NCBI RefSeq assembly: GCF_963675165.1
Contig: NC_087377.1
Location: 1,699,501-1,763,500 of the forward strand
DNA from: Halichondria panicea
Taxonomy: Eukaryota; Porifera; Demospongiae; Suberitida; Halichondriidae
Length of the DNA stretch: 64,000 bases
Reading direction: 5' to 3'
The notes under the pieces: model-generated
What the model saw: the letters and a program-made list of their open reading frames with translations, nothing else
The model's database searches: none
What the model was told of the DNA's origin: nothing
Translations under genes and position numbers: made by a program
Shown here: positions 35,035-63,359 of the stretch, in pieces
Position numbering within the stretch: position 1 is the stretch's first letter
Layout of the letters: the number at the start of each line of letters is the position of its first letter

Positions 35035-35164
35035 ATGTCAACCGCGAGATGCTGTAGATGTAAAACTGGCACCTGTCAGTCGTGTGTGTGCCAGAAGAAA
35101 GGCAGCCCCTGCTCATACTGCCCCCTGCACATACTGCCCCCCAGGGTCTTCGTGCACAAACAAG
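35035..35164 (+). pseudogene. Cys-rich exon, copy with 16-nt duplication
   Basis: Begins MSTARCCRCKTGTCQSCVC, the array signature (CCRC, xC, xxCxC), then PCSYCP. A near-tandem repeat of tgctcatactgccccc shifts the frame before the final SSCTNK, which continues in another frame to the donor gttagt. Outlying member of the array at 46.9-59.8 kb, about 12 kb away. Confidence 0.65.
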
Positions 35165-36329
35165 GTTAGTCCCTATAATTATAGTAGATCTATTCTAGTG
35201 GGTGGGGGGAAGCAGTTAATTGTCTCCACCCTCGACCTCACTTCCGCGATCACTTTAAATCAACTAACGTAAATGTTGATTATCTTTTTAACATTAGTAT
35301 AATTATGTATTAGAAAATGGAAATAGCGAAAAAATAATTGAAATAATTATCAAAAACGGTACCTTTATAATTATTATCACCGTGTTATCTTATTCTATTG
35401 TTTTGGAACTTCTCCAACTTGTACTTATTGTGTTTCATTTTGGCTAGTTGAGTTTACCATTGTTTATTCCATTCCTAAAAGGCATTAACAAAATTGAACA
35501 ATAGTTATGTACTGGGGACCCCATGATGGAAATGCTGTGCTTGCAAGAGATATGAAGGTACGTTGGGGTAGAATGGTAACTGCTTATATAGAAAACGGGA
35601 TTGCCGTTTCTCGTTTCATGCCTTTTTTACGTATTTAACCACCTTTGCAGCAAACCACAATGAAGCCCTGAAAACAATGGGAGAAGAGGAATTCAAGAGG
35701 GGCTCGGCACTGACTAGGTAGCCCTATAGTAAAATACTAGTATAACCTGTTTGGTTGTCTGGTTTGATGTCTGACAACTGCTCTACTGTTTGGTGGCTTC
35801 GCGTTGTGCTGAAGTTGTTTGACTGGTGAGTAGTTTGTTCATAGTGGAAAAGTATGCCATTCCTTGAAGAGAAACATGTGCAACTTTTGAGATCTAGCGG
35901 CCTTGTTGGAAAAGTGCGGCTTTCCACTGATATGTCTCAAGATGACTATAAATTATGGCCGCAGTGTCATCACATCCAAGGGTAGGTGGGTATGCAGAAG
36001 CAAAGGAAACACAACATTTTTTGTAAGACAGAGTCTTGATACCTAAATCAGACGCGGGAGCAGAGATATAGAGCAATCGCCTAAGGTACATAAATACTTC
36101 CTAAGATGAAGACTTACACTGACTGAACTACTTCTATATGCAGACGAGTGCACGAGTTGCACAGATATACAAGGAGTTGCTGTAATTTTCTTACACTTTG
36201 TGGTGTAGTTCAAAAAAGTTCGAAATATATATGGAAAAAGACGAAGTTACAGTAGAAATCTAAAAGTTGAACATTATAAATTATAAATGTCAGGCCATAA
36301 TTATTAGGATGCCAAGTTGTATTACCATC
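35165..36329. other. No gene recognised; two weak exon-like pieces
   Basis: A frame MYWGPHDGNAVLARDMK ends at a donor gtacgt at about 35559, and a later piece after ttgcag (35650) reads NHNEALKTMGEEEFKRGSAL before a stop. They resemble no family I know. The remainder is AT-rich and non-coding. Confidence 0.35.
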
Positions 36330-45586: not shown

Positions 45587-46512
45587 CTAGTGATAGCCAA
45601 TCAATTCAGGGTTCGTCCTTCTCTTGTGGGTGTGGTCTGTCAATCCAATCACCAATGGGCAACGGTCGCTCCCAAACACCTCCTTACGAATCACCACATC
45701 AGTTACATGAAGGAGGAGCCGCTCAGACACCACGAAATAATCCAGCCTCCTGAAGAAAAAGAAATGTGATCATATTAACAGTAATGTACTTAATGGCCAC
45801 TCTTAACCATCTACGATATAAAAAGCCCACCTCCTACATACCTTTATCGGACAGCAAAAAATAATTATTTTGGAAATTGTCCGGGTATAATTGGAACAGA
45901 TTTTTATAGAGCATGTGAAGTGTCCGGAATAATTAGAACAAGCAAGCAGCTGCATGCGAGCTAGCTAAGTTTAATAGAATGCTGTGCGATTGAATAGTTG
46001 CACTAGCTATCTAAAACTAGCTATCTAACTGCAGCACTCTAAGTCTTACTTGCCGTCTGTGAATGTAACTCAACTTTTCAAAGTATTGTCCGGATTTTTA
46101 GAACAAATGTAATATTAAAGCACTGGAGTGTCCGTTGTATTAAAACAACGAAAATTGCCCAAAAGAGAGTCCGGGGTAATTAGAAGTGTCCTATAAATTA
46201 GAAGATATACGGTAATTATAATGGACAAACCCAAATGTTTTGTGTTATAAAATGGTTCCGCTGTAACTATACAGCTTTGCTCACACACACACTGAAATTG
46301 AAATTACACTCTATTTCTAGAGTAATGCGGGAGCACTCACCAGCCAGTGTTCTTGGCTCTGGCGTTGAACTGGTAAGTGTACGCTCCAGCGAGGTCGGGA
46401 TACAGGTGACGGAAGGTGTCCACGAAACTCTCCTCCAGTAGCTCTGTGAAGTCCTGTCTCTCCTCGGGCGTGAAACCAGCTGTCTTTGTGTTTGTCTTGG
46501 GGTTCTTCAAAT
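45587..46512 (-). CDS. APEX1: AP endonuclease 1, last two exons, catalytic His replaced
   Basis: Exons 46512-46341 ([47 protein letters not shown]) and 45749-45587 ([33 protein letters not shown]). Trp is split across the intron, and RLDYF keeps the Asp of the active site. The invariant terminal motif GSDHCP is GSDRCP here (CGT at about 45668-45670), i.e. the catalytic His (human His309) is Arg. The C-terminus runs 15-20 residues past the usual end. Upstream exons (LQETK, GDLN) were not found; the region beyond 46.5 kb is occupied by the Cys-RRM array. Base-excision repair nuclease if functional, but likely inactive or a pseudogene. Confidence 0.85.
45838..46214. mobile_element. TATACGGTA-type MITE, left end deleted
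   Basis: Homologous along its length to 62901-63299 (tatcggacag, attgtccgggtataattgga, tgtccggaataattagaaca, gaagatatacggta). The left terminus lacks about 13 bp of the inverted repeat. Confidence 0.85.
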
Positions 46513-46894: not shown

Positions 46895-46971
46895 GCTTTC
46901 CCCGAAACAAGGGAGGATTAGGAGGGCCTCCTTAACCTCTCCTATATAGTCACGCCTGGATAAAGGCCGCC
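46895..46971 (-). pseudogene. RRM first-half exon, decayed copy
   Basis: After the acceptor ccctcacag the segment keeps an ILGGLYPG-like RNP2 strand and GEVKEALL in shifting frames, and ends with a tttcgggg...gtgagt that corresponds to the FGGTS donor of its relatives. Clearly homologous to 49930-49839 but not translatable. Confidence 0.5.
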
Positions 46972-47261
46972 CAAAATTAATGCATTTTTTGGGATCTGTG
47001 AGGGAGTGATAGGAACCAGTTATAAAACTCAAGTTGAGATATATACTCAGCTCATAATTATTGTTATAGTTAATGTATAATTATATGCACAATTCCCCAA
47101 ATTAATGGAGCCTCGGTTGTCAATTCCTTCGATCCTATTGACCTGACCACAAAACACTTGCAACACACATTGCATGACTAACAAACATTAATTTGAATGT
47201 AACTAACATAATACGGAACACTACATGCATTCACATTAATATATATACATGGCCCTCACGG

Positions 47262-47345
47262 TTTCTGCTGATGGACCAGATGAACCTGCAGGGATGTTTG
47301 TGGCTGCTCAGGAGGTGGGGTAGAGAACAAAGGCGTCTGTAAAGG
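47262..47345 (-). pseudogene. Pro-rich exon of the Cys-RRM family
   Basis: Encodes TPLQTPLFSTPPPEQPQTSL then VHLVHQQKP, ending at agaaacc/gtgagg. The same ending and donor occur in Pro-rich segments at 50110-50165 (-) and 52310-52407 (+), identifying a recurrent linker exon. Confidence 0.45.
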
Positions 47346-48107
47346 AGTGGATGACAGTGCTTGACACAAGTGTATTACAAGAAGTGTGCTTGTGCATGCA
47401 ATCGTGGATATAATAATGGATGTGTATAAAATATTATATAGATTTAGCAATTGGTTAGAATCACTCTTTTTGCGTTATTAGAATCGTTGTTGGCTATTGG
47501 GTCAAAGGTAGCTACTGGCAAATGTGCATGGTCTAATGTCAGTGAGTGGGTGTTCACAATTGAACCAGCTGGTTGGAGGGGATCTACTTGCCATCATGGT
47601 GATCATGCACCTTCTTGTGAGAGGTTCTATATATTGTGCTCAGTACAGTGCATGCAACACAATGTAGACAGCATTTGAGTGATTTGGCTAAAATCAATTC
47701 ACACACATACGTACACACAAAGACTCTAATTAGAAATACAATTAACCAACACAAGTACATACAGTCACTACTCTTTTTTTTTTGATTTCAACCTGCAGAC
47801 AAAGTGCATGCATGGTGCCAGCACATCACACTCGAAAAACAGGAACAAATTTAAAACTTACACTTTGTCCTTTGATCAATAATTATATATTTTTTTCTAA
47901 GGCCATTTTGCTGAGAGTTCATTAAAAAATGTAATGAAGGCAAACCCGATACAGAAAGTATAATGGTTTACTTATACAATAATTATTGTGAGTGGATGGT
48001 ACTAACCCCTCCCTTCCCTTCGCCCATGGGATGTCCACCGACTGCACAACTGAGAAGTAAAGCACATGTTAATTTGTCGAACCACCATGCACTTAAAAAT
48101 GACTCAC

Positions 48108-48200
48108 GCTGGTTCCTCCAAAACAATAGAGGGCAATTCTTATGTCCCCCTTCGTGGTACGGGGAGGGAGGCCTCCCAAGTAAATTTCTCTGGATGCCGT
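48108..48200 (-). pseudogene. RRM first-half exon, acceptor lost
   Basis: Open: TASREIYLGGLPPRTTKGDI and RIALYCFGGTS, then donor gtgagt. IYLGGLP is the RNP2 strand. Relative to the 49930 copy, the acceptor CAG is CGG, so the exon body is intact but probably cannot be spliced in. Confidence 0.65.
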
Positions 48201-48708
48201 CCGTAAGGGGGTGGAGGAACCGGTTATATACATGTATATTCAGCTCATTATTAAATATTATCCTCCAAAATAGTAACATGCATATAATTATATATATATA
48301 TATACGATTCCTCGAGCATGGATATCCTTGTGAATGCGTATATATATATAGTGGTTAGCTCTCTATAGATTTCTGTGTTAGAGTAGTATAGTGTCGTTGT
48401 TGGCTTTGTTCATGCGAGACAGTGACTGAAGAGTTATACACAACTCCAATGCATCTAGTCGACCTATTGATAGGCGTGCTTTTTCCATTTAAAAAACTCG
48501 AGCCCCCCCCCCCTATTGTGAAATTGCTTCATACACCACTGATACAGATATAGATATAGAACACGTACACATGCATGTCGATACAACATAAAACAAATCG
48601 TTTGCGCGGCTTGAATTTATACAAATAATAGGCAATCTTGTACTATATATAATTCGGGAATTCGAGCATAACTGCATATAATACATGTATGCACGCATGG
48701 TCACTCAC

Positions 48709-48756
48709 TGAACATTTCCTCTTAGGTGGAGGGGGAACTAGCTGACTAGCGGGTAC
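48709..48756 (-). CDS. Short Pro-rich exon-like segment
   Basis: Acceptor cctccacag and donor gtgagt bound a 48-nt open segment VPASQLVPPPPKRKCS. It lies between RRM-half exons of the array and may be an additional linker exon. Low complexity, so moderate support only. Confidence 0.35.
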
Positions 48757-49530
48757 CTGTGGAGGGAGTGCAGGGGTCAATGACATGAACTCAGTTAAAT
48801 GCTACATCCTGTGTAACGAATGGCACACTAAATAATCGTTTTATACGGTTGGAGGTGGGGCTGGTGAGTTAGGGAGTGGGGTATAATGGATGGACCAGCA
48901 CTGACACTCATAGTGTCGTTGTTGGCTACATGTTGTCATTAAGGCATAATTGTTCGGGACACTCACGCAACGCTTCAACCGTAGGGTCAGGCCCCTAGCT
49001 AGGGCTAGTGGGTTCGGGAGTAGTGCGGCACACTGGGTGGAAGAACTAGCCTGTGAGGGAATTGGAGGAATCACATAAACTAAATCAAGTACATGCTTCC
49101 GTACTATTGTACTACAAACACCTAGTGATAGCTGGTTCAGTCTTGTATACGATGTGAGTGCATAAAAACAGCTGCTATAATTATATACTAAACAGGGCTT
49201 CACCTATATAGCCTTACGCAGCTCAGTATAATCATACAGAATGATATAGGTCTGCATACATGAAGTAGTATAGTGGTAGCTTAATCCTGTACACTTGTAT
49301 TGTTTTTATTATTTAATCTGAGCAGTATTCTCAGGAGGCAAACATTTACGAAACGAAACCAATGCACACGAGAAAAAATAATAGACCATGAGTAATTTTA
49401 TAGACCACTATAGACCATGCACCAGAGAACAAGTGTATAATTTTGATTTATGACAACCCTAGTGGGACCAGCACTGCATGCACACACACAACACTGAGTA
49501 TTAACTATAATAACATGGAGGGAGACTAAC

Positions 49531-49596
49531 CTGGTTTGAGCATCTTGTGCTGCAACAATTTGTACATAGTCCTTTTTTACATCTGCAGCATACCAT
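49531..49596 (-). CDS. Short Cys-rich exon
   Basis: ATG then VCCRCKKGLCTNCCSTRCSNQ, 22 codons, ending in phase 0 at the donor gttagt shared by the family. The second half of the usual motif is shortened. The 5' flank (gtggactcgactatcttcaa, ctcacatcagc) is nearly repeated on + at 52550-52616 before another Cys exon, so it is probably a promoter or 5' UTR conserved by duplication. Confidence 0.6.
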
Positions 49597-49838
49597 GCTG
49601 ATGTGAGGTGTACGTATATATCAGTTTTCTGATGTGAGGTGAGGCAGTTGAAGATAGTCGAGTCCACTCCGTTTTAGTTGCTGATTGTTCAGCACCAGCA
49701 CTGCCCGCTCTTTTATAGCGATTATGAGCGGAAGTGTGCCCCCTTCCTTTTCTCCCTCCTGGTAAGACCAGACTCTGTACAAGAGAGAAGTATAGCATAA
49801 GTTAAGTTGTCGAACCACCACCCTTAATAATGACTCAC

Positions 49839-49930
49839 GCTGGTGCCGCCAAAACAACGGAGGGCTCCCTGATAACCCCTTTGGTGGTACGCGCAGGGAG
49901 GCCTCCCAAATAAATTTCTCTGGATGCCGT
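49839..49930 (-). pseudogene. RRM first-half exon
   Basis: Acceptor ccctcacag and donor gtgagt are intact. It encodes TASREIYLGGLPARTTKGVI (RNP2), then a single-base loss turns the helix REALRCFGGTS into REPSVVLAAPA. Sister of the exons at 48200 and 59341. Confidence 0.6.
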
Positions 49931-50610
49931 CTGTGAGGGGGTGAAGGAACCAGTTATACAGTAGTAATAATTATGCATATATACACACAATTCGCCAAAT
50001 TAACGGAGCCTCGGCTGTCAATTCCTTCGGCCCTATTGATCTGATATGCACAATGCACATTGGCTATCAAGTATTTGACATAATACGGAACACTACATGC
50101 ATTCTATACATGGCCTCACGGTTTTTGGGGTGGCTGACGAAGAGGCTGCACCTGGTGGGGTTGGAATCAAAGGTGTCAACTCTATCTGAAATCCATCAAT
50201 CTGAAGACAGTTAGCTCTGCAGGCCTCCTAAATAAATGGATGTCGTCTGTAAGGGAGGAATCAGTGACACAGACTTAAGTGTATTTACAAGAAGTGTGCT
50301 TGTGCATGAATTACAATCGGCATGGATACAATTGTGAATGCGCATAAATTATAGATCTAAATTGATTAGTTCTCTCTATAGATTTCTGTGTTAGAGTAGT
50401 AGTGTCGTTGTTGGCAGTTATACACAACTTCAATGCATCTTGTCGACCTATATATCTTCACAAATACAAACTAACGGAGCCCCCATATTTCTAGGCTATA
50501 GAGATGACTTATCAACCTGCACTATGTAGGTTGATAGACGTACTAAAAAACTCGAGCACTCGACAAGCACTGCACACACACACACACACAACACCGAGTG
50601 AATTAACTAC

Positions 50611-50800
50611 CGTATAGCGGGTAAGTTTCGTGGGGTAAAAAATTCGTTCAACTCCAAAAACGGTGAGTAAATATTTCGTTTAGTCTCGTTGCCTGCACTG
50701 CATTCCGGTAAGCCACGCCTACGTTAAACTTTTGTGGAGGTCAGCCTGCCAACGAAAATAATGAATATTTACCCCACGAACATTACCCGCTATACGGTAT
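50611..50800. mobile_element. GCTATACGG-type MITE, full length
   Basis: Starts taccgtatagcgggtaagtt and ends attacccgctatacggta, with TA at both borders. The interior matches the 22449 copy. It sits right behind the donor of the Cys exon 50937-50823, in that exon's intron. Confidence 0.9.
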
Positions 50801-50822
50801 AACAACATGGATAGAGACTAAC

Positions 50823-50937
50823 CTTATTTGTGCACCTGTAGCTCTGATGCAGTTGCTGCCGGTTCTACCTGCCTGGGCACACACACACAGCTGTTGCACG
50901 ACCCAGTCGTGTACTTGCAGCTGCATTTAGATGCCAT
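50823..50937 (-). pseudogene. Cys-rich exon, minus strand
   Basis: ATG then ASKCSCKYTTGSCNSCVCAQ, AGRTGSNCIRATG and a frame slip before the family ending gcacaaataag/gttagt. It has the CxC, GSCNSCVC core but lost several canonical residues (CCRC is CSC, PC is TG). Confidence 0.6.
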
Positions 50938-51308
50938 GGGCCTGGTGTGTTGCGGCAGAGCTAGACGACGTTGAGGAGGTGAGATTTGGGGGGAAATCGA
51001 TGTGGCAGATGCTGAGAGCTGGGATGGATATATATGGAGATGGCAGACTTAATTATTTTTGCAAATGCACCAGAAAACAATAAAATCCAGTATTATGTTA
51101 GTTGCATTCAAATGTTTGTTAGCCATGCAATGTGTGTTGCAAGCGTTTTGTGGTCAGGTCAATATATATATAGGGCTGAAGGAATTGACAGCCGAGGCTC
51201 CATTAATTTTGGGAATCGTGTGTATACTATAATTATAGGCTAATAATTATGAGCTGAATATATATCATTGACTCAACTATATAGAGTTCATGTCACTAGT
51301 TCCTCTAT

Positions 51309-51493
51309 ACTCCCTCACAGATTCAATCAAAGAAGGTGCACCTATAGCTGGCCTACATGTAGGTTCAACCGAAGGGGATATCAGCCAGGCCCTCCGCAGG
51401 TTTCGCCTTCGCTACTTTTAAAGCTCAAAAATCGGCCCAAGAGGCAATAAAAAGAAGTTTTGTTGCCATTAATGGGAAAATGTTGCAATTCAG
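51309..51493 (+). pseudogene. RRM copy, halves fused and broken
   Basis: The first half survives as GSTEGDISQALRR with the RNP2 strand interrupted by stops. The second half reads GFAFATFKAQKSAQEAIKRS then FVAINGKMLQFRK and a stop: RNP1, helix 2 and the last strand. No intron separates them, unlike in the other copies. Confidence 0.6.
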
Positions 51494-52089
51494 AAAATAA
51501 AAAAGTAACTGATATTAATGTTCGTCTGTGCATGTTGTCTATAATACTATAATTATAATTATTATGATGCCAAGCTAAATCACTCAAAATGCATGCATGT
51601 TGTATGCAATATAATTATATATTACAGAACCTTTTACAAGAAAACAATCACCCGCTATGTGGCAGATAGTGGTTGATACTTGAGGGTGCTGACATTCACA
51701 CTATAATTGGTACTATAATAATATACTGATCCAAGTTTCCATTCTCAACTGCTGATCCAATTTATCTTTGTTCTTCACTGAATCTATTGCTCATTGTTAC
51801 TGATGGCTGGTCGAGGTATTCTGCCACGCCACTATGTCTGCCTAGGAAGCAGTTTAAAATAGCTTAATTATGAATGTACAATATCGGCAATGCTAACGCT
51901 GATGGCATGTAATAATTATTTCAATGTACTTGATGTGTTATTTCTGGATATCAAGATCAGAATTCCAACATGGCAAAGACATCTCTTTGTTCCATGTAAG
52001 TATTTATTAAATTAAATAGATGTTAAAACGACTGGTGATCGATATCCACTGACAAAGCTGTACAAAAAAAATTATTATTAAAGGCAAAA

Positions 52090-52407
52090 ATGTCAAGAGG
52101 AGAAGAGGAACGGAGGACTACAACTATCACTAATTCCCCGTTGCCACTTTATGCAATGAAAGGGCCCGAGATGGCTATTAAGAAAAACACACTGCAAAGG
52201 GCAATGCTCGGGAGGACACTGTACCACTTAACCCCTGAGCATATGCGAACGCCTCTGCAGAAGGCAACAAGGAGAAGACTGGACCACTCTCAGTCGAAGA
52301 TGCTCACCAATCTTCCTCGACCAACCCAGCCACAGTCTCCACCCCAGCCACAGCTAACCCAGCAGCGAACCTATAGCCACAGTCTCCCCCCCCCCCGGAA
52401 ACCGTGA
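52090..52407 (+). CDS. Pro/Gln-rich exon of the Cys-RRM family
   Basis: Open from ATG at 52090 (MSRGEEERRTTTITNSPLPL) to LPRPTQPQSPPQPQLTQQRT and PPPRKP, and ends at a gtgagg donor-like site at ggaaacc/gtgagg. Pro-rich spacer between the Cys module and the RRM in the inferred unit. The sequence after it (gacagccgaggctccattaa) is the conserved intron of the family. Confidence 0.45.
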   Translation: MSRGEEERRTTTITNSPLPLYAMKGPEMAIKKNTLQRAMLGRTLYHLTPEHMRTPLQKATRRRLDHSQSKMLTNLPRPTQPQSPPQPQLTQQRTYSHSLPPPRKP

Positions 52408-52616
52408 GGGCCATGATGTAGGGTTGAATTGACAGCCGAGGCTCCATTAATTTTGGGAATCGTGTGTATACTACTATAATTATAGGCTAATAATTATGAG
52501 CTGCATATAATTATATCATTGACTCAACTATATAGAGCAACTAAAACCGAGTGGACTCGACTAGACTATCTTCAACTGCCTCACATCAAAACTGCAACTA
52601 TACACCTCACATCAGC

Positions 52617-52740
52617 ATGTCGTGCTGCAGATGCAAAATAGGAATATGTAGCGGGTGTGTGTGTGCCCAGGGGGGCACACCCACTCAAGAGGCAATAAAA
52701 AATTTTTCGTTGCAAAAAAAGGAAGTTAATGTGCATGCAT
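52617..52740 (+). pseudogene. Cys-rich exon fused to RRM second half
   Basis: MSCCRCKIGICSGCVCAQGG runs straight into TPTQEAIKNFSLQKKEV, the helix-2 region of the RRM. The second half of the Cys motif, the Pro-rich exon and the first RRM half are deleted. Confidence 0.6.
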
Positions 52741-52902
52741 GCATGTTCCTGTTATGTGATGTGCTGGCACCACATGCATACACTTCACATCATGTGCTGG
52801 CATCACATGCATACACTTCATCCACAGGTTGAAATTCAAGAAGTAACAGTACTGTTATTATGATGCCAAGCCAAATCACTCAAAATGCTTGTGCTGTCTC
52901 CA

Positions 52903-52978
52903 GGGTTCACCTTCGCCACTAAGAATCGGCCAATGAGGCAGTGAAGAAAAAATTTGTTTCAGTTAAAGGAAAAAATGT
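52903..52978 (+). pseudogene. RRM second-half exon, frameshifted
   Basis: After the acceptor tctccag reads GFTFAT, then by a shift ANEAVKKKFVSVKGKNV before gtaagt. RNP1-like start and helix 2 are recognisable. Confidence 0.55.
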
Positions 52979-53036
52979 AAGTTAATGTGCATGTCACTGC
53001 ATCATCTCAGCTCGCATGGTATCTATAAATAGCTAT

Positions 53037-53280
53037 TAAATGCTGTAGATGTAGCACAGGAGCATGCCACAGATGTGTGTGTCCATGCATGGCAGACCTT
53101 GCAGCAATTGTATCCCTGGAACAAGCTCGAGGTGCACCAACAAGGTTATAGTCTCTATATATATATATATATATATTCATGTTGTTATAGTTATGGCAGC
53201 ATCCAAACAATCTATTTACGAGGCCTCCCTACTGACAACAAAGAATTGAGACTCTCAGCTCCACTGCTCTGGTTCGACTA
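53037..53280 (+). pseudogene. Cys-rich exon and RRM first half, close together
   Basis: 53041-53144: CCRCSTGACHRCVC, a frame slip, then GRPCSNCIPGTSSRCTNK at the family border. 53185-53280: TIYLRGLPTDNKELRLSA (RNP2), ending with FGSTSVT-like sequence. The intron between them is reduced to about 40 bp and includes an AT microsatellite (53157-53174). Confidence 0.6.
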
Positions 53281-53288
53281 GCGTGACC

Positions 53289-53458
53289 ATGTCGGCATGC
53301 TGCTGCAGATGCACAAAAGGATCTTGCCAAAGTTGTGTGTGTGCCCAGTTCCGTGACCATGTCGGCATCATGCTGCAGATGCACGAAAGGATCCTGTCAG
53401 AGTTGTGTGTGTGCCCAGGCCGTGTACAAAATGCTTCAGCACCAGCTGTACTAACCAG
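53289..53458 (+). pseudogene. Cys-rich exon, tandemly doubled
   Basis: MSACCCRCTKGSCQSCVCAQ is followed by a second copy of the same 70-bp stretch in another frame (SASCCRCTKGSCQSCVCAQ), then PCTKCFSTSCTNQ before the donor gttagt. A fresh internal duplication of the Cys module. Confidence 0.65.
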
Positions 53459-53854
53459 GTTAGTCTCTATGATATCAAACAAAATTTGGTTTTAATCAAA
53501 GGTGCATGTTCCTGTTATGTGATGTGCTGGCACCATGCATGCACTTTGTCCACACGTGGAAATTAAAAAAAAGAGTAGTGACTGTATGTACTTGTGTTGG
53601 TTAATTGTATTTCTGTGCGAGGACAAAACAATGGTACCTGCAGTTGTGAAGCCACAATGAGGATCCAGAGGTTTTGTACAGTATAATTATGCCTCGGTGA
53701 TCTCCAAATTAATGATAAATAATTAAGCTAGTGTTTTAAATTTTAGGACAACAATGCTAAAAAGCAGTACAAGTACGGTGGCCAAAATAGCATCAAACGG
53801 AGGCCCTACATGAAGATGTCTATTATAAGAAAACCTCTCTGGTCTCTTGCGGCT

Positions 53855-54110
53855 ATTCACAAAGTTATGCCAGTGGGTATACTATGTACTATGTGCTCAT
53901 CATTCTCAGGCATGCACCGAGAAGAAGTGTTTTGGGAGGTCTACCTCATGGGTGCACAGAAAAATAAAGAGAGAAGAGTGTTTGTCTCTGGTCTCCCCCC
54001 ACATACGTCGAGGGACTCTGTGGCGGAGGCCCTGAAGATGTCTAATAATAACAAAGTTATGCCAGTGGGTATAATTATGTGCTCATCATTCACAGGCATG
54101 AATGCACTAA
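53855..54110 (+). pseudogene. RRM first-half segment in a local duplication
   Basis: Reads EEVFWEVYLMG and then RRVFVSGLPPHTSRDSVAEA with RNP2 VFVSGLP and helix 1. The phrase caaagttatgccagtgggta with following gtgctcatcattc occurs at 53857 and 54053, so the piece lies between two copies of a 60-bp direct repeat. Confidence 0.5.
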
Positions 54111-54564
54111 CTGGTGTTCTCTGTTCTCTGACCCCCCACTCCCTCACAGACAACTGGCACAGCTCCAGGAACACCTCCGACAGCACCTGCAGTCGTCACT
54201 GTTAATGTTGTCCTCTCTGGTATAGAAAGGAAGGAAGAGGGTTCCGGTTCGCCTTTGCAACTTTTTTTTTAGTAAAAAAGCGGCCGAAATGGCAATAAAG
54301 ACCGCATGTTTTCATGAGGCTTGCCACAGATTTGATGCGTATTATGAATCGATTTTCCAAGCCAAAATGCTCTAGCGTTATAATTATAAATTAAAAAAGG
54401 TTGTAAAAATGATGTTATAATTGCAGTCCAACAAATATCGGCTTGTAGAAATCATATGCTCTAGACGGACTAAAGCGGACGTCATGAGAACGGTATATGC
54501 TTTGTGCTCTGCCTTGGTACATGTTCACTGCATGTGTATATAGAATTTCTCGTTAGGTCACAGG

Positions 54565-54870
54565 TGTGTGTGTGCCTTGGGAGGTGGAACCTGTAGCAAT
54601 TGCCTCCCTGAAACGGGATCCATGTGCACCAACAAGGCTAGTCTCTATCCAAGCTCATCCCTCAGCACCGGCCATATCCATGCATGGCATCTAGATCTGC
54701 TAGTTGCTGCAGATGCAAAACTGGGTCCTGCAGCAGCGGGTGTGTGTGAAGTGATCATCCAGCCCAGGGGTTTGCCTTTGTTGCGTTTGTGAATAAAGCA
54801 GCAGCAGAGAAGGCTATTGAAGCGAAAAATATTATAATTAAAGGGAAAAGAGTAATAGTTGTGTGAATGT
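54565..54870 (+). pseudogene. Cys-rich exon pieces plus RRM second half
   Basis: 54565-54636: CVCALGGGTCSNCLPETGSM then CTNK, with the donor gttagt changed to gctagt. 54690-54866: SASCCRCKTGSCSSGCV, a stop, then GFAFVAFVNKAAAEKAIEAK and NIIIKGKRVIVV with a stop: RNP1, helix 2 and strand 4. Confidence 0.6.
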
Positions 54871-55126
54871 TTATAATGGCACCACATGCACACTTTGTCC
54901 ACAGGTGGTAATCCAGAAGTAACAGTATACTATGATATACCAAGCCAAATCACTCTAAGTTATTGAATTATGTATATACATTACTGAAGTATCAACCACT
55001 ATCTGCATGAACACGAACACGAACACAAGCATTTTATGTGGTCCCTCCATTTGGTAGGGAAAGCCATGAACATTTTCAAAAGACGATGGTATAGAAATAT
55101 ATATATATACTATTATAATTACTCTC

Positions 55127-55340
55127 GCAACCGAGAAGAAGTGTTTTTGGACGGCTTGCCCCTTGGATGCACCATTAACACTGTGAAGGTGGCCCTCCAA
55201 TGCTGTGAAACAATCCATGTAAGTTATAATCCCATCGCCTGGGTTCGGGTTTGCTACCATAAAAACAGTCGCAGAAGCTGAGAAGGCTATAGAAGCCAAA
55301 AGTATTATAATAAAAGAAAAAAGAGAAATAGTTGTGTGAA
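55127..55340 (+). pseudogene. RRM copy, both halves
   Basis: REEVFLDGLPLGCTINTVKV, ALQCCETIH before gtaagt, and only about 25 bp later in another frame GFGFATIKTVAEAEKAIEAK, SIIIKEKREIVV, stop. The intron is too short to be spliced, so this copy is broken although both halves are readable. Confidence 0.6.
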
Positions 55341-55429
55341 TGCATGTTATATGATGTGTTGGAACCATGCACATACTTTGTCCACATGCATTGACTCGAC
55401 TGAGTGTTGATGTTACTGGTTCCTTTACT

Positions 55430-56110
55430 CACAAAAAAGTGCATTTGGGCTGCAGGGACAATCAAAGATGACATCAGTGCTTTGGCCCCACTAGCGTGAG
55501 TCATTATAAGCTAGGGTATAAATTTAAAAAATGATGTAAGTTTAATGTGCATGTTCCTGTTTTGTGCTGGCACACACTTTGTCACAGGTGAAACTCCAGA
55601 AAAGAGTAGTATGTTATATAGAAACAGAGCATAATATTATATTCATATATCCATGGGTTCGGGTTTGCAACCCTAAAAACAGCTGCAGAAGCTGAGAAGG
55701 CTATAGCGGCCAAAGCTGTTGTAATCAAAGAAAAAAGAGTAAGTTTTAATAGTTGGCACCACATTCGCCACATTCGCAAAAGTGTCAGCTGACAATGACG
55801 TATACAGGGGAAAAATAATTTAAAAAATGATGTAAATTAATGTGCATGTTCCTGGCACACACTTTGTCACAGGTGAAACTCCAGAAAAGAGTAGTATGTT
55901 ATATAGAAACAGAGCATAATAATTATTATATGCATATATGTATATAGATTGTGCTCATCCCAGCCCAGGGGTAATTCGCCTTTGCCACCCTAAAAAGCAA
56001 AGCCACGGCTGAGAAGGCTATTGAAGCCAAAACTATTTTAATTAGTTTGGATTCGTTACTTTCAAACAAAAGCAGCAGCAGAGAAGGCTATTGAGGCTAA
56101 AAGCATTATA
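55430..56110 (+). pseudogene. Three further RRM fragments
   Basis: 55440-55500: a first half (KKVHLG..., CFGPTSV) with stops. 55648-55745: GFGFATLKTAAEAEKAIAAK, AVVIKEKRV. 55983-56105: FAFATLKSKATAEKAIEAKT followed by a repeated helix-2 segment. A 60-bp stretch (gaaactccagaaaagagtag) recurs at 55590 and 55873, showing local duplication. Confidence 0.55.
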
Positions 56111-56269
56111 ATTAAAGAAAAATAGTTAAGTTTTAATATAGTTGTGTGATGTGCTGGCATGTACGCACTTTGTTCACAGATTGAAATCAGAGTAACAACT
56201 TCACGTGTAGTATTATTATTAGTTAATTAATCATTATAAAAAGGGCCACATCTTCTCTAGTGCTCTCTC

Positions 56270-56336
56270 CGGCATGGCATCAGTAAACTGCTGCAGGTGC
56301 ACGACTGGGAGCTGCAGCGGATGTGTGCCTAACAAA
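56270..56336 (+). CDS. Very short Cys-rich frame
   Basis: ATG then ASVNCCRCTTGSCSGCVPNK and a stop: the first half of the Cys motif only. Could be a truncated member; no splice donor follows. Confidence 0.4.
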
Positions 56337-56433
56337 TGAGTTGTGTATAACTGCCAACAACGACACAATCTGAAAACAGCACCGGCCTCTAGATCTATCC
56401 TCTATCAGCTAGCTTCTAGATGGTTTCCAATTA

Positions 56434-56544
56434 ACAAAGTTTTGCAGATGCATAACTGGCACATGCCTCAACTGTGTATGTGCCCGGGGAGGTAGGCCAT
56501 GCAACAATTTCCTTCCTGGAGCCCGTGGCAATTGCACCAATAAG
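56434..56544 (+). CDS. Cys-rich exon, best-preserved motif
   Basis: Open throughout: KFCRCITGTCLNCVCARGGR, PCNNFLPGARGNCTNK, then donor gttagt. It gives the full spacing C-x-C-x5-C-x2-C-x-C-x5-C ... C, with one Cys replaced by Phe (NNF for xxC). Preceded by the family acceptor ttaacaaag. Predicted small metal-binding module; function unknown. Confidence 0.6.
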
Positions 56545-56599
56545 GTTAGTCTATCCATAATGTGATAGTTATAGCTGCATTTAAAAATAATACAAATGT

Positions 56600-56700
56600 A
56601 CATAGGAGGCCTCCCTATTAGTACCACAACAGGGATATCAGGAATGTTTTGCACCCACCAGTGCGAGTCAAAAATCTGGCAAAAAAGCAACAAATAAAAA
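56600..56700 (+). pseudogene. RRM first-half fragment
   Basis: IGGLPISTTTGISGMFC, then THQCES, matching RNP2 and the FGxTSV end of the family in degraded form. No clean donor. Confidence 0.45.
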
Positions 56701-58387
56701 AAATATGTTTACAATGACGGAAGTTATGATGTGCTGACCGTGCACACTTGTCCACAGGTACGTGGAAATTAAAGTATAAGAATCAATTATGTATTATCCA
56801 GACAGTCTCGATCCCAGAAGTGTCGTCGATATCCTCTAATCAAGAAACGACTAGTCGATGAAATAATCAAAGATGACGTGAGTTCGGGTTGATTCATTTA
56901 TGCAATCCTCAGTAATCCTATTCAGGACTTCAAGCAGCAGCTACGGTTGAAAATGGGTGATAACTTCCCAAGCTGTTTACAACGTGCTGTTGTCGCACCT
57001 TCCTTGTCTATTGAAACAAGAACAAGGCATTTGGATAAAGAAAAATGTTACCTACGTTGCCCTGTGAGTTTGAGAATACAACCGATAATTAGGAGAGTGG
57101 GTTATTGCTTACAATAAAATAATAGCATAATTTATGATGTTTGGATGATGTAATAAAGAACTCTGAAAACCGCTGTATGGTTAGACGGAAGTATGGTGGG
57201 CGTCATGCAGTCAGACTTGCGTAACGATGACGCATATAGTACCTCCGTCATCCTGGGTCATGAGGTTAAAGGTTATCCTCCTGGGCGGCAGATTATTTAT
57301 GCTCAAAGGTGATGGATACACTCTTAAAGAAAATGTAAATACATCATCATCAATCAAGAGAAATCAGTGGCTAACTGATTTCGCAAAATCTGGCCTGCTA
57401 TTAACTTTATAATATCTGGTTGAGGATGTCTTTACAATATCTGGTTGATGATGTCTCCCTCAAACGATCAGCTATGGCCCTTGCTCGCATTTTCATTGTA
57501 TATGATGCACAATGTGACATATCACACACATGCACAGAGTATGTCACTAGTGAGGTCTCAATAAGTTTCAATATTTTCTAGTTAATTAGCTATTAGCCAA
57601 CACGGACGTTTAACAGAAATGTAAGAAATTGAAATCTGATTCCCTTAATATGACATCATTTTGTGGGGCGGATTATATGTCAATGTGGTTTCGATACACA
57701 TAAATTGCATATGTAGCTTTTCAAAAAATAAATGCTCAATTTGAAATTTGACAAGAGAGTTTCAATGTCAATGATTATAAATTATCAAGTTATTACAATT
57801 ATTGTAGAAGAATTTTTGTTTCATTGTACAGATAAACGACAACCACAACAAACATACAGCAACAACAATCAAGACCAACACCAAACCTTAACTTTGCATC
57901 TGGACCACCAATAAAACCAATAAATCACTTGAACTTTGTATTCTCGACAGTTATTATCCCTCAAAGGATACGCACATTACTATATAGTTCATCATTATCT
58001 CTGATAAATTAATTGACAACTAATCGCAAGTCTGTTCTTTATTGAAGCTCACTCTCTCTCTCTCTCTCTCTCTCAGTTCTCTGATTCGCAAGGTTTCAAT
58101 TATTTGCAAGTTATTTCTCAGAGCCAGAGTGAACAGAAGAATGAATGGATGATGGAGTGCGTGTATAAGTTAGTGACAGTACAAATTGTCACTGACATTC
58201 CTTTTTTACTGTTCATCGTAATTATTCAGATATTCTATGATCCAAGTTCTCAACTGAGCGAAGTTCAACTCCATGTGGCAAAAACATTTGAACCGGAAAG
58301 GGTTTTATTAAACATAATTATTGTGACACACAACGAAGAAAATGTGGAACCCATAAGTCTGCTCTTGTTAACTATGGCACTTATATG
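56701..58387. other. No gene recognised
   Basis: Contains a tail fragment of the array (cacaggtacgtggaaattaa at 56753), a TC microsatellite (58048-58075) and AT-rich DNA. A 108-codon frame at 58104-58430 has no recognisable domain and no splice support. Confidence 0.45.
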
Positions 58388-59240
58388 TACACGTCTATTA
58401 TCGTTACGTGCAGACATTGGATATGAGTAAACGAGCTGGAGAGTGCGACTATTAGCGACATTCGATGATACGTGTCTAAATTATATAATGCAAACATTCA
58501 TTTACGTGGTATATTCGTTTTGTGCAGATCTTCACAAAAAGATGGTTGTTGCGGTGCTCGCTCAAAGCGCCGCCAACCAAACGCGAAACTGTACTGCCTC
58601 CAGTGTTACATGCAGGCGACAGGAAGTGTCAGCGTAAGTATAACATATAAATAAACATAAACTGTCACGTCTATAGCGCAGCACATCATAAGTTATGTAA
58701 TCTCGACAAAAATCCATGAGTTTGAGTTCTCAACTGCGCTTCAGTGTTTGCCAATATCTATACACTAACACGTTACAATGTACAGATCCTGCCTTCTACT
58801 AGCCGTACATAATTAAGATGCATGTCTGAATCTAGTCTCATGACACACAGCAGAAAGGTTGCGAAGAATAGCAAGAATCAAAATCACTTTGTAACTTATG
58901 TTTACTGAACTAGTATCGTGTCATTTCTGTAAGTATACTTTAATTCAGAATACCGCAATTTGTGGGCTGGGGGCTTTAAAAATTCAATAATAATAACTCC
59001 AAAAACTAGTAAATGCAGTAAAAATGAGAACACAGCTTTATTATACAACGATAAGCACAAAATTGTTCCAGTTTCAAATGGTTGGCTCCAGCCATGACTT
59101 GTAGTCGGATACTTAGATTCTAACACGCTTTGAGGTATAAAATGGAGGACTGTAAACAAAATCGTGGCAGTGGGCAGTGACCTTAAAGAAGGGCTGAAAG
59201 CAGTGGGCAGCGGCCTTTAAGAAGGGCTGAAAGCAGTGGG
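58388..59240. repeat. Segmental duplication, blocks A and B joined
   Basis: 58388-58675 equals block A (37624-37911) and 58683-59060 equals block B (38748-39130); 58993-59240 also matches 37372-37575. Lacks the 0.8 kb with ARL3-like exons that separates A and B in the first copy. Confidence 0.85.
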
Positions 59241-59340
59241 CATGCATTTGGGTAATAAACGAGCTGAATATGCATGTCATAATTATATAATTACTCAACT
59301 TATCATGAGTTCAGGTCACTCATTCCTCTATCCCTCACAG

Positions 59341-59778
59341 ACACTATCAAAACAATTATGCAAGGTGTATTTGGGCGGCCTCCCTGCTGCGGTGAGCAAA
59401 GGAGACATCAGGGAGGCCCTCCATTGTTTTGGAGCCACCAGCGTGATTCATTATTAAGGGTGGTGGTTCGACCAATTAACTTGACTGTGCTATACTTTTC
59501 TGTTGTACAGTGTGTGGAAATACCAGGACGACAAGGAGTGACAAGGGGTTAGTACTATGCATCCACTCATATAAAATTGCAATGCATTGCTTGTTGTCTC
59601 CAGGATATGCCTTCGTCACATTTGGTTTGCAAACGTCAGCTGAAAAGGCAATAAAAGCCAAACAAATTGTTATTAACGGGAAAAAATTAATGTAAGTTTT
59701 TACTGTTTTCATGAATGTTGTGTTGATGTGCTGGCACCATGCATGCACTTTGTCAACAGGTTGAAATCAAGAAAGTAG
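59341..59778 (+). CDS. RRM exons of the Cys-RRM family, best copy
   Basis: 59341-about 59447: CKVYLGGLPAAVSKGDIREA, LHCFGATS (RNP2 and helix 1), with the family donor changed to gtgatt so that the frame reads on to a stop at 59455. 59604-59691: GYAFVTFGLQTSAEKAIKAK, QIVINGKKL (RNP1 GYAFVTF, helix 2, last strand), donor gtaagt. 59760-59778: completes Met and adds LKSRK, stop. Strand 2 of the RRM is not visible, so an intermediate exon may be missing. No Cys exon is found directly upstream. Predicted RNA-binding module. Confidence 0.62.
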
Positions 59779-59843
59779 CATAGAATCAATGTGTATATAA
59801 TTATTAGTCTGTGTAGTCTGTATATTATTCTGTGTATGAATTA

Positions 59844-61620: not shown

Positions 61621-62288
61621 CATAAGCTAAATGAAAACATTCTCCCTTAGGTATTACAATAGAGATATAATAATACAGTCCTACACTTTGCCCACTTTAT
61701 GTGAGCGATAGACAAGCAGATGCACCTTTGTAGTACACAAATTAGATTACTGTGCTAATTAGGTTACTTAATGTGCCAGTGAAGCATTAAATGCATATGA
61801 TCAAGAAAAGCTGCAGTAAAGATCGATGTCAAGGTAAGGCATAATATTACAGACAATTTCAAGTTGGTTGTCCAGTTGAAGTGCAGTGTTGAATTGCACT
61901 GTAGTTAATTAGCCCAATTAGGCTGACATTTGAGGTGGAGGATTATATGGAGGCATTACTTCAATCAAGAAGTGGCAGAACATGTCTGCATGTGTGAAAA
62001 TAGTTAAACGCATAACTATGCTGTATAATTATACTGGGAACGTTTCTCCAACAAATCAAATTGCTTTGGGCATAATCCTAGCTTGGCCTAGGCTCTCCTT
62101 TTTCTGTTCTTTAGTTCTAAATACGTGACGAATTGGAGGAACAAAGAAAGAAAGAAGGAAGAGACAAAGAAAAAGGAGATTCCTTTTTCTTTGTCTCTTC
62201 CTTCTTTCTTTCTTTGCAATTGCCGCGCCAATTTTTGTAACTTATTTATCAATAAAAACAACGTTGTCATGTATATATACTATGCATA
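61621..62288. other. No gene recognised; hairpin
   Basis: A long A/G-rich hairpin lies at 62143-62215: gaaagaaagaaggaagagac with its complement gtctcttccttctttctttc around a short loop. It lacks a target duplication or coding capacity. Confidence 0.6.
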
Positions 62289-62899: not shown

Positions 62900-62900
62900 G

Positions 62901-63299
62901 TACCGTATATCTTCTAATTTATCGGACAGAAAAAAATAATTATTTTGGAAATTGTCCGGGTATAATTGGAACAGATTTTTATAGAGCATGCGAAGTGTCC
63001 GGAATAATTAGAACAAGCAAGCAGCTGCATGCGAGCTAGCTAGGTTTAATAGAACAAGGTACGACTGAATAGTTGCACTAACTTCTAAAACTAGCTACTC
63101 AAAGCTATCTAACTGCAGCACTCCAAGTCTTACTTGCCGTCTATGAATGGTAACTCAACTTTTCAAGGTATTGTCCGGATATTTAGAACAAATGTAATAT
63201 TAAAGTACTGGAGTGTCCGTTGTATTAGAACAACAAAAATTGCCCAAAAGAGTGTCCGGGGTAATTAGAAGTGTCCGATAAATTAGAAGATATACGGTA
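62901..63299. mobile_element. TATACGGTA-type MITE, 399 bp, intact ends
   Basis: Perfect 27-bp terminal inverted repeats starting taccgtatatcttctaattt; the right end is the exact complement. The terminal TA may be the target. It abuts the 77-bp MITE. No coding capacity. Confidence 0.92.
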
Positions 63300-63359
63300 T
63301 CTGTTTTAATTTGTTTCACCTTATAATTATCACGGCGCTCGGACAATAGAAGATACCAG

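Follow-up and report, generated by a model that had tools for sequence, protein, structure and literature searches.

A Cys–RRM gene family of the sponge Halichondria panicea in which exons have diverged more than introns

The window analysed here, a stretch of 64,000 nucleotides of contig NC_087377.1 (hereafter C1) from the demosponge Halichondria panicea (C1:1699501-1763500, within a 131 Mb genome of 39 contigs, from which all the gene copies compared here come), carries on both strands the mostly broken pieces of a gene family that joins a nine-cysteine N-terminal domain to an RNA recognition motif (RRM). Between three lineages of one subfamily, the exons, synonymous sites included, were shown to diverge more than the introns. 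This pattern had not been seen in the preliminary description of the window, made from its letters, whose interpretation of a repeated Cys, Pro-rich and RRM unit is supported by the present analysis.

Exon and intron divergence

The subfamily is represented by an intact gene on contig C16 (C16:418385-420280, plus strand; the 418 kb gene), the seven exons of which are all open and in frame, are separated by GT-AG introns and encode 153 amino acids. Its copies fall into three lineages, namely the 418 kb gene, a copy at 396 kb and the duplicates on C1, five of which have a homologous exon 1. With divergence summed over exons 1 and 3-7 and introns 1 and 3-6 (exon 2 and intron 2 were omitted, being non-homologous in C1), the 11 pairs between lineages differ by 0.125-0.151 in exons and 0.023-0.035 in introns, the two pairs with copy c2024, intron 3 of which differs more, having introns at 0.066-0.068. 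These ranges omit copies c1364, which has no exon 1, and c1505, in which exon 1 and intron 1 are not homologous; the exon and intron values are 0.118 and 0.032 for c1364 and 0.254 and 0.154 for c1505 against the 418 kb gene, and 0.125 and 0.034 (c1364) and 0.259 and 0.148 (c1505) against the 396 kb copy.

The excess extends to synonymous sites. For the 418 and 396 kb copies, synonymous divergence (dS) is 0.40, nonsynonymous divergence (dN) 0.145 and intron divergence 0.023; over the five computed pairs (exons 1, 3 and 4), dS is 0.19-0.40, dN 0.11-0.15, dN/dS 0.36-0.65 and intron divergence 0.023-0.068, with Fisher p values between 4.7e-14 and 6.4e-4 for synonymous sites versus introns. The step in divergence falls at or near exon borders, with the exception of exon 5, which has 0 differences in 34 bases between 418 and 396 kb. 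The five dead C1 copies differ from one another by 0.013-0.040 in exons and by 0.012-0.058 in introns, and exon divergence is the greater in five of the ten pairs.

When C16:406226, of a second subfamily, was compared with six C1 copies, exon 1 differed by 0.14-0.17 and the first 100 intron bases by 0.00-0.01; judged by eye, the members of a tandem C16 pair differ by 0.16 in the Cys exon and little over the rest of the unit. An intron value of 0.13 in the pair at 404.0 and 406.2 kb is caused by an indel of 60-odd bases. Intron divergence below 0.06 was combined with exon divergence above 0.10 in 17 of 861 pairs (which are not independent), and exon divergence below 0.09 with intron divergence above 0.25 in none. 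Mobile introns were considered and rejected: extended similarity to introns 1 and 3 is restricted to family loci, so neither intron is an independent mobile unit. Within intron 3 (L056:1014-1515), bases from about 163-243 and 288-328 belong to short repeats found across many contigs, and weakly matching pieces of intron 1 are present on C7 and C12.

Intact genes and their distribution

The exons of the 418 kb gene run from a Cys exon with its ATG through two Pro-rich exons, the second ending PPPPKRKRS, and three RRM exons to a short tail. A second intact gene (C16:436847-434088, minus strand; the 436 kb gene) has eight open exons with GT-AG introns, encodes 183 amino acids and keeps the same order, with one additional Val/Pro exon ending at gtgagg. 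Each protein thus begins with a nine-Cys exon, continues with Pro-rich exons that include a basic patch (KRKR or KRRC) and an RRM spread over three exons, and closes with a short basic tail. The order of the unit that had been proposed from the window (Cys, Pro-rich, RRM first half, RRM second half, tail) is therefore right, and the Cys exon is joined to RRM exons in intact loci as predicted. The unit can be made more exact: a third RRM exon of 34-37 nt, encoding beta-2, lies between the two halves, and there are two Pro-rich exons. Since gene models were built for chosen loci of the clusters only, two intact genes is a lower bound.

In Pfam, the intact proteins match only RRM models, and no reverse transcriptase (RT). 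The RRM_1 (PF00076) matches have E values of 7.8e-9 (153 amino acids) and 2.2e-10 (183 amino acids), with scores for the spliced genes of 35.7 and 40.7 bits against a curated cut-off of 20.7; a third spliced RRM unit, at C16:402637, scores 13.7 bits and falls under it. RNP2, beta-2 and RNP1 follow in order as IYLGGLP, SVDIPG and GFAFARF in one gene and HVGGLP, CVVIPA and GFAFATF in the other. The nearest solved chains in the PDB are hnRNP A2/B1 and A1, found with a query whose tail was wrong and nine residues too long. The likeness to hnRNP A/B-like single-RRM proteins lies in these matches; here, unlike in those proteins, the RRM is fused to a nine-Cys N-terminal domain unknown to Pfam, is split by two introns and occurs in large degraded clusters. 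Among the matches listed in searches of open-licence PubMed Central, no description of such a Cys-RRM family was found.

The family is repeated along C1 (about 1.24-2.25 Mb) and forms a cluster at C16:386-448 kb. As a genome query, the best Cys exon of the window gave at least 53 matches at E<=10, with 29 at C1 1.24-2.25 Mb, 15 at C16 388-448 kb and nine elsewhere, and the two RRM-half queries gave at least 45 and at least 24. A Cys stretch of 121 bases occurs eight times at >=96% identity, seven times on C1 (the window's copy included) and once on C16. The copies in the window are segmental duplicates in a degraded state, closely similar to part of the C16 cluster. Beside the RRM copy at C1:1986.8 kb (L066:1965-3084) lie open frames of 106, 177 and 95 amino acids that look transposase-like.

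The Cys domain and a retroelement reading frame

The nine cysteines of the domain are spaced C-C-x-C-x4-C-x2-C-x-C-x6-C-x2-C-x(4-8)-C-x-N. In the Tesmin/TSO1-like CXC family (TCR, PF03638), the spacing C-x-C-x4-C-x(2-4)-C-x-C-x6-C-x2-C and the final C-x-N look alike; the difference is that the Cys domain gave no match to that profile, nor to any other Pfam family, at E<=10 (11 family and retroelement members searched). No PDB match was obtained at E<=10 either.

The window's Cys exon also retrieves long open frames elsewhere in the genome, in which the Cys domain comes first and is followed by a Pro/Gln-rich stretch and then by a reverse transcriptase. Such open reading frames (ORFs), of about 1055-1088 amino acids, lie at C1:17033244 and C6:181398, and their Cys domain is matched 19 times at E<=1.3e-5, across 12 contigs. 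The RT assignment is based on a single in-frame stretch (L084) of the 1088-amino-acid frame at C1:17033244, which matches RVT_1 with E 5.7e-13; of the other pieces searched in Pfam, L033, L036 and L037 gave no RT, with sub-threshold RT matches only from L033 and L080 pieces, and a PDB search with a piece of the ORF returned only low-complexity matches to ribosomal protein L21.

The N-terminus of the RT ORF resembles that of the family (M-x-CC-[RK]-C...C-x2-C-x-C...C-x2-C...C-x-N, then a Pro-rich stretch), and the two Cys profiles align with an hhalign probability of 98.4 and E 6e-15. On this comparison, the Cys domain is homologous between the spliced family and the RT ORF. In other respects, the two differ: the RT ORF is one long, dispersed, RT-bearing frame, with no RRM match in the pieces scanned, whereas the intact family genes have seven to eight exons and no RT match, and 44 of the 53 Cys matches of the window exon lie in two clusters.

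Interpretation of the divergence pattern

On balance, we regard it as probable that these genes form a multigene family of small (about 150-185 amino acids), probably nuclear RNA-binding paralogues, in which exon differences are kept while recombination homogenises the introns. The RRM would bind RNA, the Cys domain would fold on metal and provide another contact, to nucleic acid or to protein, and the paralogues would differ in their binding targets. A nuclear RNA-binding protein is suggested by the RRM and the basic patches, only the basic patch pointing to the nucleus. The introns of the C16 cluster would have been homogenised by gene conversion or unequal exchange and the exon differences maintained by selection; the lineages of the exons appear to predate those of the introns, and homogenised introns with kept exons would be the simplest fit.

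Several observations weigh against this account. Only the 418 kb gene is intact among the three lineages, the C1 copies being dead, and the 396 kb copy has a frameshift in exon 6 and no acceptor AG before exon 7. Introns 1, 3, 4, 5 and 6 have diverged to nearly the same extent, which resembles the product of one duplication rather than of repeated conversion. Finally, exon 5 and introns 4 and 5 are identical in the 418 and 396 kb copies, although divergent exons lie only 66 and 58 nt away, which would require very short conversion tracts.

Comparable patterns are reported for other genes. In gibbon L/M opsin genes, which encode unrelated proteins, exon divergence exceeds that of introns and is attributed to gene conversion of introns with selection on exons (PMC3213168); the likeness is one of process only, and conversion tracts were tested in that work. 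Among viperid three-finger toxin genes, exon switching (ASSET) reportedly leaves introns alike while exon segments differ among paralogues (PMC2474615). The likeness is again of process only, the present proteins looking like nuclear RNA-binding proteins and synonymous sites having been measured here.

Functional constraint on the introns, with RRM proteins regulating their own splicing through conserved intron elements and the exons evolving fast, is an unlikely alternative. In its favour, introns 4-6 of the 418 and 436 kb genes differ at only 24 of 188 positions though synonymous sites are near saturation (a proportion of synonymous differences, pS, of 0.60, with 91 of 276 positions differing in exons 1, 4 and 6), and exon 4 is more divergent than intron 4 in 214 of 253 pairs among 23 sequences (at all depths, non-independent, with dead copies included and end gaps free). 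Such constraint would nevertheless not lift exon dS to 0.40. Moreover, introns 1 and 3 (about 500 nt) match at 96-98% among members of the subfamily but resemble the 436 kb gene in patches only, and so have not been conserved over longer times.

Replacement of exons through spliced RNA, whereby reverse-transcribed messages of paralogues convert the exons and leave the introns, is improbable, and would be new if it proved to be the source of the exon diversity. The shift of divergence at or near exon borders and the presence in the same genome of an RT ORF carrying the same Cys domain speak for it; exon 5, however, was not replaced, divergence enters the last ~80 bases of intron 3 (6/76, the remainder of that intron having 12/422), and a genome search gave no closer donor for the exons of the 418 kb gene.

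Less probable still is exon-specific hypermutation or plain positive selection. In its favour, each of the three lineage pairs shows much the same exon distance, about 13%, but positive selection alone is insufficient given a raised dS with the dN/dS values above, and in an informal comparison exons and introns have similar substitution spectra in which no one change dominates. The weakest alternative, which the preliminary description had itself raised as a possible refutation and which is borne out only in part, is that the array consists of transposable-element ORFs: the Cys domain is indeed common to the family and the RVT_1-bearing ORF with its scattered matches, but each gene has six to seven introns of spliceosomal type, the intact proteins match only RRM models and the Cys matches are clustered rather than dispersed.

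The architecture, a retroelement-type Cys domain, a Pro-rich linker and an RRM of which the Pfam search recognised only the last, may be a case of one domain common to host genes and a retroelement, in an animal gene cluster with exons more diverged than introns even at synonymous sites. If selection keeps the exon diversity, it would imply a hitherto unknown part played by RNA-binding proteins in conflict or recognition, with which the shared Cys domain and the exon diversity are compatible. Rather doubtfully, one may go further and propose that a host family joined the Cys domain of the retroelement ORF, or of its donor, to an RRM, was diversified exon by exon with its introns homogenised, and supplies restriction factors, RNA-guided or acting as decoys, that target this retroelement or some other fast-changing parasite; this would make it an RNA-binding counterpart of venom- or major histocompatibility complex-style exon diversification.

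The array in the window

Profile searches of the window at E<0.01 gave ten Cys matches, four to the RRM first half and eight to the second, on both strands, and none for any of the three profiles in 20 dinucleotide shuffles of it; as the profiles were trained on family members that include pieces of the window, the shuffles are a test of chance and not of independence. The two-stranded repeated unit is thus real. At E<0.05, the region from 46.9 to 59.8 kb holds 12 Cys fragments, or nine segments when frame-split pieces are merged, with four RRM first halves and nine second halves, and each of the donors noted earlier (gttagt, gtgagt, gtgagg and gtaagt) lies where it had been placed.

The most complete member is a minus-strand unit (49596-47768) with all seven exons of the intact gene; the unit is dead, exons 4 and 6 having lost their acceptor AG, with further frame and stop defects. 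Its exons are the Cys exon 1 (49531..49596; ATG start, 66 nt as against 102 in the C1 duplicates owing to an internal in-frame loss), the Pro-containing exon 2 (48967..49050; acceptor AG, donor GTGAGT), the Pro-rich, basic exon 3 with PPPPKRK (48709..48756), exon 4 with RRM beta1-alpha1 and IYLGGLP (48108..48200), exon 5 with beta2 (48007..48041; one base more than in the intact gene), exon 6 with beta3-alpha2-beta4 (47862..47946; an internal stop) and the tail, exon 7 (47768..47792). The same strand carries a second copy, with a frame-broken Cys segment (50843..50919) and a frame-broken RRM first half (49839..49924), and a Pro-rich segment ending gtgagg (47260..47340; upper end approximate, by eye). 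Segments of this last kind do exist as first noted and correspond to the additional exon of the 436 kb gene, with which the donor context agrees.

On the plus strand, an RRM second half (GFAFATFKAQKSAQEAIK; 51399..51482) is followed by a Pro-rich segment ending gtgagg (52300..52404; start approximate, by eye), a truncated Cys segment with an ATG start (52617..52691), a Cys segment ending CTNK with one frame break (53041..53144), two truncated tandem Cys segments (53301..53458), the second part of a Cys segment (CSNCLPETGSMCTNK; 54559..54636), an RRM second half (GFAFVAFVNKAAAEKAIEAK; 54768..54851), an RRM first half (55138..55203), four consecutive RRM second halves (55241..56122) and a truncated Cys segment (56289..56330). 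No other Cys exon of the window is as long as that at 56440..56544 (FCRCITGTCLNCVCARGGRPCNNFLPGARGNCTNK, followed by gttagt), which lacks an in-frame start codon downstream of the preceding stop. A four-exon RRM unit (59341-59442, 59511-59547, 59604-59691 and 59760-59781) is open throughout; the donor of exon 4, in the numbering of the intact gene, is gtgatt, and the spliced RRM scores above the Pfam RRM_1 cut-off.

The outlying piece at 35.05 kb, earlier noted as a possible first exon, does contain a Cys exon (35041..35166, plus strand), the reading frame of which is broken; this exon occurs at eight places on C1, the window's own included, with open frames of 50-54 amino acids, and no match to the RRM profiles lies close to the copy in the window. 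No Rfam family reached its gathering score in a structured-RNA scan of the window. A minus-strand open stretch adjoining the array (46320-46510) reads like the C-terminal part of an AP endonuclease. By eye, two similar stretches with tccgg...ttagaa units (46060-46240 and 62900-63300) appear to be a dispersed repeat, and a long near-perfect inverted repeat rich in AAAG/GAAAG lies at 62140-62225.

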